IMG/VR virus record: IMGVR_UViG_3300017917_000042
Location: 1-41,254 of that record
From: a virus
Strand: one strand, 5' to 3'
DNA: 41,254 nucleotides
Numbering within the stretch: position 1 is the first letter of the stretch; each line of letters starts with the position of its first letter. Below are positions 36,714 through 40,652 of this stretch, one piece after another. The notes below the pieces were generated by a model, which searched no databases, had not been told where the DNA came from, and was given only the letters and a program-made list of their open reading frames with translations. A program made the translations under genes and the position numbers.

Positions 36714-37130
36714 ATGAACACTGTATCAGCCGGAGTATTCTTTTATTGCACAGCGACAAAAAGATACCTATACCTGTTAAGAACGGATGCTAAAAATCCG
36801 GGAAATTGGGGTATACCGGGCGGGAAAATAGAAGAAGATGAAACTCTATTTGAGGGTATTGCTAGAGAATGTGAGGAAGAAATTAAATTTTTCCCCAACA
36901 AAGCCAAGCTAGTACCGATACAAAAGTTTGTTAATCATAGCTTCACATATCATACATTCTTCTGCGAAGTTGATAACGAATTCATCCCTACATTGAATGA
37001 TGAACATTGTGGATATGCTTGGGTAGGAGAAGGACAATATCCCAAACCATTACATCCGGGATTGTTTAGTACAGTGAACTTTGATGTAGTACAAGAAAAA
37101 TTAGAAACACTAACAAAAAAAGCCCCTTAA
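36714..37130 (+). CDS. Nudix hydrolase
   Basis: 138 residues. The full Nudix box GX5EX7REUxEExGU-type is present at 37-59: G37, E43, R51-E52, E55-E56. The substrate is not predictable; phage Nudix enzymes can hydrolyse ADP-ribose, Ap4A, oxidised nucleotides or RNA caps. It follows gp15 by 18 nt but has its own TAAATG box. The stop codon lies inside the loop of the downstream bidirectional terminator, so this is the end of the plus-strand unit. A link with the window's other nucleotide enzymes (MazG, dNMP kinase) is inferred. Confidence 0.9.
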   Translation: MNTVSAGVFFYCTATKRYLYLLRTDAKNPGNWGIPGGKIEEDETLFEGIARECEEEIKFFPNKAKLVPIQKFVNHSFTYHTFFCEVDNEFIPTLNDEHCGYAWVGEGQYPKPLHPGLFSTVNFDVVQEKLETLTKKAP

Positions 37131-37459: not shown

Positions 37460-38845
37460 TTATACACCGTTAATAGTTACGATTGGGTTAGGCTGTCCAC
37501 CGTATGTATTTGCTGCATAAGCTGTGTTGAATGTAGCAATAACATCAGGGTTGACGTTAGCCAATACAGCAAGACCTGTACCAGAACCACCCGCGTTTAA
37601 CGCAGTGAATGTGACACCTGTCATGTTGCTTGCTGCACCAATTGCGGTCCAGTTTGTATCACCTGAGAAGTAAATTGTATATACTGAACCAGGAGTTAAC
37701 GAACCGTCAGCAACAGTCGCTGGGAACAACTCAGAGTTGTAATCGTTAATAGAAGAAACATATGCTACTGTTGAGCTTGCATCAGTTGAACGGATTGACA
37801 TTGTGTTTGGTGTCAATGCTGTGTTAGCAACGTTAGCTGTATAAACTGCACCAGTAATACCAGTTGTTGCACCTGTTACCAAGTACTTTGTCTTACCCTT
37901 CTGACGAACGATATAACCTGCTTCTGGTAATGCTTGAATGAATGGATCACCTAGACTAGATACACCAATTGCGTTGTTTGCAGAAACTGCACCTAATACA
38001 ACACGGTTCTGAACAGCGTTAGGTGTACCAGTTGCATCAGACAAGTCTACTTCTGCGCCGGCGCGAGTTGTAGAAACAGTGAAAGCACTAGCGTTAGCAA
38101 TTGCTTTAACAAAGTATGTAGTACCTGTTACTAGACCACCTAAGTTAGCACTGAATGTAACAGGAGTATTAACTGTCAATGTCTGTGCATTACCTGATGT
38201 ACCGATGATATTACCAGTATTTTGTGTATTAGCAACTGCAACAGTTAAGTCGCCTGCAGTTGCAGTAGTTGTACCTAATAACTGTACTGGGCCTGCGCCA
38301 TCACCCCATACTGCGAATAAACGAGTACCAGTAGCAACGTTTGCAAAGTCAGTACCTAAACCAACAACAACGTTGCTAGATGTAGATGCAAAAACTGTAC
38401 CTGTACCGTTAACACCAAATGCAACGTTACATAGAACTTGCTTACCGTATATTGCTGTGTTACCACCAACTACACCGTATGTGCTAGAGTTTGTTGCAGG
38501 ATAACCCGCACCAGACACTGGGTTGTTGAAGTATGCGTCAACAACACCAACTGACAACTGAGAAGCAGTTGTACCAGTTGTTAATGTAACTGGGGTATAT
38601 GTTGGGTTTGCGCTTAATTGTGTAGCAGAAACAGTGAATGTTGTTGAGCTAACAACTTGTAAAATCCAATATGTTGTACCAGCAACTAAGTTTGTACCAG
38701 TTGTAATGCTAGGTACAAACGGCATACCTGCGATAATACCTAATGTGTTTAAGTTTTGTGAAACAGTAACAACGTTTGTTGTTGCGGTAGTGTTAGTTAC
38801 TGTCAAGACCGCTTGGGCCTTTGCGATTTTTAGAGGACGTCCCAT
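37460..38845 (-). CDS. beta-rich virion protein, MGRxLKI family
   Basis: 461 residues. The N-terminus MGRPLKIAKAQ parallels MGRALKIRKYQ of 39672-40562, and both have a central VRQKG-x-x-x-(Y/F)LV motif, so they are paralogues. Two copies of the TYYVK...FTVS module are present (about 20-92 and 205-280). There is also a YTIYFSGDTNWTAIGAASN segment of a kind I associate with phage structural proteins. No enzyme motif is seen. A head decoration or fibre role is likely. AAGGAAAA precedes the ATG, behind an 83-nt structured leader. Confidence 0.75.
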   Translation of the reverse strand: MGRPLKIAKAQAVLTVTNTTATTNVVTVSQNLNTLGIIAGMPFVPSITTGTNLVAGTTYWILQVVSSTTFTVSATQLSANPTYTPVTLTTGTTASQLSVGVVDAYFNNPVSGAGYPATNSSTYGVVGGNTAIYGKQVLCNVAFGVNGTGTVFASTSSNVVVGLGTDFANVATGTRLFAVWGDGAGPVQLLGTTTATAGDLTVAVANTQNTGNIIGTSGNAQTLTVNTPVTFSANLGGLVTGTTYFVKAIANASAFTVSTTRAGAEVDLSDATGTPNAVQNRVVLGAVSANNAIGVSSLGDPFIQALPEAGYIVRQKGKTKYLVTGATTGITGAVYTANVANTALTPNTMSIRSTDASSTVAYVSSINDYNSELFPATVADGSLTPGSVYTIYFSGDTNWTAIGAASNMTGVTFTALNAGGSGTGLAVLANVNPDVIATFNTAYAANTYGGQPNPIVTINGV

Positions 38846-38866
38846 TTGATTTTCCTTATGTTATAT

Positions 38867-38919
38867 GCGGGTTCTAGCCGCTACGCAGTGGGTACTGCAT
38901 AAACTCTCAGAATTAAGAG
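38867..38919 (-). ncRNA. three-hairpin leader RNA, copy A
   Basis: In the leader of 37460-38845, minus strand 5' to 3': P1 CTCT/AGAG (38904-38919); P2 TATGCAGT/ACTGCGTA with loop ACCC (38882-38901); P3 GCGG/CCGC with loop CTAGAAC (38867-38881). P2 and P3 are directly adjacent and could stack. The same three elements precede 39672-40562. Relative to that copy the fourth pair of P3 changes from A-U to G-C, and the P2 loop is 4 rather than 5 nt. The Shine-Dalgarno site AAGGAAAA follows 11 nt after P3. Confidence 0.7.
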
Positions 38920-38928
38920 CGTATCGTA

Positions 38929-38934
38929 TATTTA
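38929..38934 (-). promoter_or_regulatory. late-type box TGATAAATAT
   Basis: TAAATA immediately after the TGA stop of the pirin-like gene, 83 nt before the ATG at 38845. It would produce a transcript starting just ahead of hairpin P1 of the leader. Confidence 0.6.
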
Positions 38935-39615
38935 TCAGCGAAGATCAAAAAGCAGGACTTCCGAGTTGTTTGCGTTCTCAATTGTCAATGAATTTTCATC
39001 TTCAAAACTCAATCCTGATGTTTCAACACAATCATATCCATTAATTTTTACAGTACCACTAACAACATAGACATAATATCTACGACTATTATCTAACCTA
39101 GTTGTAAAATCTTCAGTGAAAATACCAGCAAACACTTTAGCATCACTATTGATATGTATAGGACCTGTATTACTAGCAATAGGACAGAAGTTGTTCAATT
39201 TATCTTCCCTGTCAAACTGCATTGCATCGTAGTTAGGTGGGAAATTGTGTTTGTTAGGTCTGAGCCAAATTTGCAAATAACGAATTGGTTTGTCAGACAA
39301 GTTACCTTCAGTGTGCCAAATGCCTGTGCCCGAACTCATACGTTGAACACATCCACTTGGTACTTCTCCGTAGTTATGCAAGTTATCATTATGATAGCAA
39401 GGACCATCTATAATGTATCCTAGAATTTCCATGTCACAGTGTTGATGAATAGGTACACAATTTCTTGGTTGCACTCTGTCATCATTGATAACTTCTAAGT
39501 CACTAAAATGAATATAGTTTGGATCGTAATAGCTATTGTTACTGAAGGTGCGAAATGTTTCAATCCAGTCTTCTTTGAGATGTCCTAATGTATCAGGGTG
39601 TCTATATTTAATCAT
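38935..39615 (-). CDS. pirin-like cupin protein
   Basis: 226 residues with a bicupin layout. The first cupin carries the metal ligands of the pirin/YhhW group: PIHQHCDMEILGYIIDG (His-x-His) and SGTGIWHTEGN (His-x-Glu), with VQRMSSGTG and LQIWLRP as further family motifs. The second cupin is more degenerate. Bacterial pirins bind iron and some, such as YhhW, act as quercetin 2,3-dioxygenases; others regulate metabolism. The role in a phage is unknown. It sits between two virion genes but has its own TAAATA box 5 nt before the ATG and follows a terminator. Confidence 0.88.
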   Translation of the reverse strand: MIKYRHPDTLGHLKEDWIETFRTFSNNSYYDPNYIHFSDLEVINDDRVQPRNCVPIHQHCDMEILGYIIDGPCYHNDNLHNYGEVPSGCVQRMSSGTGIWHTEGNLSDKPIRYLQIWLRPNKHNFPPNYDAMQFDREDKLNNFCPIASNTGPIHINSDAKVFAGIFTEDFTTRLDNSRRYYVYVVSGTVKINGYDCVETSGLSFEDENSLTIENANNSEVLLFDLR

Positions 39616-39620
39616 GTGTT

Positions 39621-39626
39621 TATTTA
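39621..39626 (-). promoter_or_regulatory. late-type box TTAAATAA, leaderless spacing
   Basis: TAAATA, 5 nt before the ATG at 39615. No ribosome-binding site is present; the upstream sequence is the terminator hairpin at 39631-39653. Confidence 0.45.
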
Positions 39627-39630
39627 ATGG

Positions 39631-39653
39631 AAAAGCGGCCTAAGCCGCTTTTT
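39631..39653 (-). terminator. terminator after 39672-40562
   Basis: AAAAGCGGC / GCCGCTTTT form a 9-bp stem with a 4-nt loop. On the minus strand the stem ends in four Ts. It lies 19 nt past the stop of 39672-40562 and just before the pirin promoter. Confidence 0.8.
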
Positions 39654-39671
39654 CTTTTGAGTGTTATTGTA

Positions 39672-40562
39672 TTAACACCAGTTTTCTGTACCAGCTAGAG
39701 TATATACTAAATCACCAGGCGCTGATGGATTAGGTAATGTATTACCATTGTCATTAAAGAATGTAGCTGAATATGTTACCCCTGGATTTGCGTTTGTGAA
39801 GGGTGTAGCAAAGTTAGTTGAGAACTTATTCTTCAAACGCTGTGCATAATACGTATCACCGTCATCATAAATTGCAACGCTCATTGTGTTAGGTTCTGTT
39901 GGGCTATTTAAGTCTACTAATAAACAAGTAGAAACAGGATATACCTCACCGTTTGTTGTCAACCCGGTACCGTCTCTTGAAGCTGTGAAAATATCGTATT
40001 GTCCTGCAGTAGGATCAGCACCCAATGCCGCCCAATTAGTGTTACTAACTGTGGCAATCATATATGCTTGACCAGCGGCGATAGATTCATCTTGAATAAC
40101 ATCAGTAGTTCCTGCAACTAGGAAACTTCTAGAACCTTTTTGACGAACGATAGATCCATTGCCAACTGCTGTATAATACCATGCACTGTCAGTGACATTT
40201 ACAGCAGAAGGATCAGCTAATGTCAATTCTTCATCGTCAGTTGTGCCGTCATAGATACCTAATGAAGTATATCCGCCTGCGCCATCACTTACCCATAATT
40301 GACTTGAACTACGGAAAGCGTCAGTTGTAAAGTGGGTACCTGTACCTGTTACAGTTGCGCTTCCAGTGTCGGCTGTGATAGTACCTAAACCCTTTACAAG
40401 AATAGCAGTATCACACTGAATTTGTGTGGAGTTTTCATTAACACCACCCACGATACCAGGCTGATTTCCAGTGTAGTTGTTATCAGTTGACCCGTCGTTA
40501 GGGAAGCCTTGGTCAACAACCTGCTCACCCTGATATTTTCTAATTTTTAAAGCACGTCCCAT
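39672..40562 (-). CDS. beta-rich virion protein, MGRxLKI family (paralogue)
   Basis: 296 residues beginning MGRALKIRKYQGEQVVDQGF. It shares with 37460-38845 the N-terminus, the VRQKG-x-x-x-FLV motif, a PNTMS(V/I) motif, and the YMIATVSNTNWAALGADPTA / FTASRDGTG segment. It lacks the duplicated TYYVK module, so the paralogues differ mainly by inserted modules. It ends in LVYTLAGTENWC. The function is probably structural. AAAGGAAAA precedes the ATG behind an 84-nt structured leader. Confidence 0.75.
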   Translation of the reverse strand: MGRALKIRKYQGEQVVDQGFPNDGSTDNNYTGNQPGIVGGVNENSTQIQCDTAILVKGLGTITADTGSATVTGTGTHFTTDAFRSSSQLWVSDGAGGYTSLGIYDGTTDDEELTLADPSAVNVTDSAWYYTAVGNGSIVRQKGSRSFLVAGTTDVIQDESIAAGQAYMIATVSNTNWAALGADPTAGQYDIFTASRDGTGLTTNGEVYPVSTCLLVDLNSPTEPNTMSVAIYDDGDTYYAQRLKNKFSTNFATPFTNANPGVTYSATFFNDNGNTLPNPSAPGDLVYTLAGTENWC

Positions 40563-40584
40563 TTGTTTTTCCTTTATTTTGTAT

Positions 40585-40636
40585 GCGAGTTCTAGTCGCT
40601 ACGCAGTGGGTTACTGCATAAACTCTCCGAATGAGA
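40585..40636 (-). ncRNA. three-hairpin leader RNA, copy B
   Basis: In the leader of 39672-40562, minus strand 5' to 3': P1 TCTC/GAGA with loop ATTCG (40624-40636); P2 TATGCAGT/ACTGCGTA with loop AACCC (40600-40620); P3 GCGA/TCGC with loop CTAGAAC (40585-40599). The conserved core including P2, P3 and the joining sequence GAGAGTTTATGCAGTA is nearly identical to copy A, while the sequence on either side is diverged. Confidence 0.7.
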
Positions 40637-40646
40637 ATATATTATG

Positions 40647-40652
40647 TATTTA
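40647..40652 (-). promoter_or_regulatory. late-type box AGATAAATAC
   Basis: TAAATA, 84 nt before the ATG at 40562, ahead of the three-hairpin leader; the spacing is within one base of the paralogous gene. Confidence 0.6.

Follow-up and report, generated by a model that had tools for sequence, protein, structure and literature searches.

Freshwater-2 RNA as the 5′ leader of a virion gene family in T4-like phages identified from environmental sequences

Two structured RNA leaders, each with a T4-type late promoter box on its 5′ side and a virion gene on its 3′ side, were found in the viral record IMGVR_UViG_3300017917_000042 of IMG/VR, the 41,254 nucleotides of which were analysed as a whole (hereafter, the window). 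Both leaders belong to the Rfam family RF02980, freshwater-2, and their relatives, preserved by compensatory base changes, almost always precede the genes of one family, whose products begin with MGRP[L/I]. The covariation, the gene specificity, the late promoter and a homologue annotated by mass spectrometry bear out the preliminary description of this DNA, in which a cis-acting RNA on the messages of virion genes was proposed. These sequence data suggest, with a probability of about 0.55, that the leader is gene-specific and sets the yield of the virion protein post-transcriptionally, via specific recognition of the UAGAAC loop.

Structure and identity of the leaders in the window

Both leaders are encoded on the minus strand and share a fold of three hairpins, P1, P2 and P3 (Table 1). 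The distance from TAAATA to the start codon is 83 nt for the gene with ATG at 38845 and 84 nt for the gene with ATG at 40562. P2 and P3 abut in both leaders, as is evident from the sequence and the fold. The four-pair P3 carries an identical loop in the two copies, while its loop-closing pair is G–C in leader 1 and A–U in leader 2. All these features had been noted in the preliminary description and were reproduced here. The Shine–Dalgarno sequence (SD; AGGA/GGA) begins approximately 10–12 nt 3′ of P3. The RNAfold z-scores of the leaders were −2.5 and −3.0 relative to shuffled sequence, and the core hairpin pattern occurs twice in the whole window, with 0 occurrences expected by chance.

Table 1. 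Leader RNAs, late promoter boxes and leader-bearing genes in the window (positions of the window)
Feature	Position	Strand	Basis
Gene 1, virion protein of the MGRP family (461 aa)	37460..38845	−	ORF; HMM E 5.9e-15
Freshwater-2 RNA (RF02980) copy 1, full length including start codon	38843..38919	−	cmscan, 60.2 bits
P3 of leader 1, GCGG/CCGC, loop CUAGAAC	38867..38881	−	fold and covariation in relatives
P2 of leader 1, 8 bp, loop ACCC	38882..38901	−	fold and covariation in relatives
P1 of leader 1, 7 bp, loop AUUC	38903..38920	−	fold; P1 support across leaders
TAAATA, T4-type late promoter box, leader 1	38929..38934	−	sequence
Gene 2, MGRP family, MGRA variant (296 aa)	39672..40562	−	ORF; HMM E 1.6e-8
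Freshwater-2 RNA (RF02980) copy 2, full length including start codon	40560..40638	−	cmscan, 65.8 bits
P3 of leader 2, GCGA/UCGC, loop CUAGAAC	40585..40599	−	fold
P2 of leader 2, 8 bp, loop AACCC	40600..40620	−	sequence and fold
P1 of leader 2, 6 bp, loop AUUCG	40622..40638	−	fold
TAAATA, T4-type late promoter box, leader 2	40647..40652	−	sequence

The leaders had initially been taken for a layout with no described family. This claim of novelty does not stand, as an existing Rfam family, RF02980 of the type Cis-reg, covers both of them at scores above its curated gathering cut-off of 49.9 bits. In the cmscan alignment both copies match the model over its full length (84/84 positions) and fit its three-stem consensus, with UUAUGC..GCGUA in P2 and CUAGAAC as the loop of P3. 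The model ends in AUG, and its positions 82–84 coincide with the start codons of both genes. The freshwater-2 family and the leaders of the window are, accordingly, alike in the three stems, the CUAGAAC loop, the SD and the AUG. The family was reportedly described by Weinberg et al. in NAR in 2017. No description of the function of freshwater-2 RNA was found in the literature searched.

The RNA itself is already known; what is added here is its phage, promoter and gene context and its occurrence outside the range of the Rfam model. The cut-off of Rfam was reached by only 6 of the 15 sources with divergent leaders, and the natural family is therefore wider than the Rfam model. Leaders beyond RF02980 differ from it in the optional P1, in variants of P3 with 3 bp and in varied loops.

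Conservation of the structure among related leaders

Relatives were collected by pattern scans of IMG/VR, which gave several hundred loci among the matches listed. Strong covariation in P2 and P3 was found across more than 240 related leaders among these matches. In 90 diverse leaders, standard pairs occupied 98.6% of the cells of P2 and P3, compared to 77% in shuffles, and double changes were found in 193 cells, compared to 49 ± 10. The covariation score of this set was 0.508, while in controls with slid partners it was at most 0.07. Because these 90 leaders had been picked by the loop motif, so that the invariance of the loop among them is a product of the search patterns, the test was repeated on leaders picked by the SD and the start codon only.

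The second set comprised 67 such leaders, which after this selection were anchored at a relaxed version of the loop motif. In P3, 97.0% of the inner pairs were formed (54% in shuffles) and double changes numbered 85 (27 ± 7 in shuffles), and pairs 3–7 of P2 were formed in 99.4% (88% in shuffles). Leaders with the 3-bp type of P3 were misplaced by MAFFT, and the pairs were therefore counted by script. The loop CUAGAAC is present in 120 of the 156 leaders parsed from the sets picked by SD and start codon, and the remainder are mostly single-base variants, CUAAAAC, UUAGAAC, AUAGAAC, CUGGAAC and CCAGAAC being among the variants found. P2 and P3 are kept by compensatory changes, and the UAGAAC core of the loop is conserved. 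A check for covariation, as called for in the preliminary description, has thus given a positive result for both stems, including in the set chosen by neither loop nor stems.

P1 of at least 5 contiguous bp is formed in 78% of leaders, compared to 23% in shuffles, and there is no space for it in 10 of the 113 representative leaders. P1 is real but optional.

Late promoter and spacing

Late virion genes of T4 are preceded by a TAAATA-type late box, and the leaders of the window share this trait with T4 late promoter leaders. Among the matches listed, 271 of the 288 leaders examined have a TAAATA/G box on their upstream side; in some of the others, the contig end has cut it off. The presence of TAAATA at a near-constant distance in a T4-like phage is characteristic of a T4-type late leader; T4 is not known to have a conserved, structured leader that is restricted to a single gene family.

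The distance from P3 to ATG is variable, mostly 15–21 or 26–27 nt in leaders picked by SD and start codon. Predicted pairing of the SD is mostly low, with a mean of 0.33; the GGACUUCU class alone has a higher value, 0.51. With P3 mostly 15–27 nt before ATG, an overlap with the SD or start codon, or their masking, of the operator type was not found.

The long-spacer class, which comprises about 100 unique leaders (e.g., L006, L016, L004 and L290), has a conserved CAUYGGACUUCU box between P3 and SD. Two further candidate elements were rejected: an extra hairpin, P4, beside the SD in the GGACUUCU class received no support from pair counts, and the reading frame of an upstream ORF from an AUG within P2 is not conserved, because the length of the P2 loop varies. 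The CUAGAAC loop has no complement of at least 6 nt in E. coli 16S rRNA, and its single 6-nt match in E. coli 23S rRNA is within what chance allows.

The MGRP gene family

In the first scan, the leader precedes an MGRP-type gene in all but three of the matches listed, and these three look like chance matches. All 26 Rfam matches in 25 large records precede an MG[R/N] gene, and nearly every member of the MGRP family in the sets picked by SD and start codon carries the leader. The products of the leader-bearing genes start with MGRP[L/I], rarely with MGRA, MGRS, MGN or MA. The question of which genes follow the leader, raised in the preliminary description, is thus answered by almost always one family. 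One leader per record is usual, and two are present where the gene is duplicated, as in the window and in the record G002 (L132, L148). Another record with two leader copies is L167. The second copy of G002 has the loop variant AAUAGAAC.

The two genes of the window do belong to one family: a profile built from 114 short relatives matches each of their products (Table 1), with E-values of 5–7 for reversed controls. Compared directly with each other, the two show weak similarity (E 1e-6 in BLASTP, in part from low-complexity sequence). The HMM of the family also matches proteins of the cultured jumbo phages Atu_ph07 (E 1e-17), Phosso (E 5e-24) and MIJ3 (E 2e-16). A distant homologue in PA5oct, annotated as ‘structural protein, ESI-MS/MS’, is 99.1% identical to the protein of MIJ3.

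The conserved MGRP N-terminus is followed by basic residues. The AlphaFold model of one member is confident (pLDDT 86.9) and represents a mostly beta domain. No significant match to it was found in the PDB by Foldseek, and in BFVD it matched nothing but phage proteins with no known function and a single ‘possible surface protein’. From the gene position and the presence in the virion, it may be guessed that the MGRP protein is highly abundant.

Genome neighbourhood and phage type

The genes are arranged in the order protease, scaffold, major capsid, leader and MGRP. A homologue of the major capsid gene is located 1–2 genes upstream of the leader in 144 of 231 loci among the matches listed, many of the loci without it being contig fragments. 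A representative capsid protein is 66–70% identical to the capsid proteins of Phosso, Vibrio 2.275, PA5oct and CBB. Genes for the T4-like sheath, tube and clamp loader are present in the window. The phages that carry the leader, represented by environmental viral contigs, are T4-like jumbo myoviruses.

Between the two leader-bearing genes of the window, a gene of the pirin family (cupin) is located at 38935–39615 on the minus strand (Pfam Pirin, E 1.9e-20; Pirin_C_2, E 3e-15), which is unusual cargo for a late virion region. A likely terminator at 39622–39650 on the minus strand, just 3′ of the gene for the 296-aa protein, consists of a GC-rich hairpin with a run of T after it (AAAAAGCGGCTTAGGCCGCTTTT). 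A NUDIX-like gene is located at 36714–37130 on the plus strand, its BLAST match being a phage MutT/NUDIX hydrolase; in about 30 loci, a homologue is encoded 3′ of the MGRP gene and on the other strand.

Relatives without the leader

In the cultured phages, the MGRP homologues have a late box about 25–35 nt before ATG and are devoid of the leader. The leader model built here gave no match in the loci of these homologues, and the search for the leader in cultured phages gave no credible match, just short SD-like stretches. The specific leader pattern was also absent from GTDB genomes, which fits lytic phages. Among uncultured relatives, the leader is lacking in L418, L430, L502, L503, L506, L447 and L512, where the late box is 34–47 nt before ATG.

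The leaderless homologues retain the MGRP N-terminus, which is thus not there solely for binding of the leader. Since such relatives exist, the leader is an add-on: in one large clade, roughly 50 nt seem to have been inserted between the late promoter and the ribosome-binding site, and the leader does not look like an ancestral trait. Loss of the leader in the leaderless lines is the alternative.

Possible function of the leader

According to the proposed mechanism, late transcription would start just 3′ of TAAATA, and the 5′ end of the mRNA would adopt a fold of two or three hairpins. The P3 loop on the P2–P3 stack would be recognised by a conserved partner, encoded by the phage or the host, and this recognition would set the yield of one virion protein by means of mRNA stability and/or ribosome loading. 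The mostly accessible SD, together with the end of the leader mostly 15–27 nt before ATG, argues mildly against simple masking of the SD and mildly in favour of an effect on mRNA stability or on the loading of ribosomes. Stabilisation or boosting seems somewhat likelier than repression, since the leader leaves the SD free, is restricted to a single late virion gene that in many cases neighbours the major capsid gene, and is dispensable in evolution. The proposed mechanism is at odds with the variable distance from P3 to ATG and with the leaderless relatives, which manage without the element, and a highly conserved loop would suit the operator of a repressor equally well as a stabiliser.

Such repression could take the form of translational feedback, in which the MGRP protein or a complex that contains it, when there are enough subunits, binds P2–P3 of the message that encodes the protein and represses its translation. 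This is possible, though on balance rather unlikely. The near one-to-one link between the leader and the gene family, maintained across very different proteins, would be explained by it, as would the joint duplication of leader and gene in the window, G002 and L167, the strong conservation of the P3 loop and the basic residues after the conserved N-terminus. However, the element is clear of the SD and start codon, ending mostly 15–27 nt before ATG, the leaderless homologues have the same N-terminus, and Foldseek, with no significant match among solved structures, provides no support from a known RNA-binding fold.

The coat protein of ssRNA phages represses translation via an RNA operator, which in MS2 is located at the start of the replicase gene. 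Operators of the MS2 type and freshwater-2 are both mRNA hairpins with a conserved loop and a possible link to a virion protein, but in MS2 the operator overlaps with the beginning of the replicase gene, whereas the freshwater-2 element precedes the SD of the very gene that encodes the virion protein, and binding of a protein to this element is hypothetical. It is doubtful that freshwater-2 is a feedback operator in the narrower sense, with a capsid-associated protein binding the UAGAAC hairpin and matching its synthesis to that of the neighbouring major capsid protein; if true, this would represent RNA control in the style of coat proteins in giant T4-like dsDNA phages.

A generic 5′ stabiliser of late genes, the hairpins of which merely shield the 5′ end from decay with no specific recognition, is improbable. 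The leader does begin near the expected late start site, and in leaders that lack P1 it is replaced by P2 near the 5′ end, but the loop and the base sequence of P2 are conserved beyond the needs of a simple hairpin, and the element is restricted to one gene family instead of occurring at many late genes. An element acting as DNA, either a regulator site or a recombination hotspot, is hardly credible: inverted DNA repeats could serve proteins too and the two copies flank the pirin gene in the window, but a U–G pair is kept at one position of P2 in 87 of the 90 leaders, pairing is preserved by compensatory changes, the order of promoter, element, SD and ATG is fixed and the strand orientation is constant.

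Conclusions

Freshwater-2 RNA is thus placed at the 5′ end of the expected late messages of a single family of virion genes, which often follow the major capsid gene immediately, and the Rfam model is shown to miss part of the RNA family. The relatives without a leader in the cultured phages PA5oct, MIJ3, Atu_ph07 and Phosso are usable as controls. An orphan RNA motif has in this way become a testable hypothesis on the control of virion proteins, namely that recognition of the UAGAAC loop may set the yield of the protein encoded downstream.
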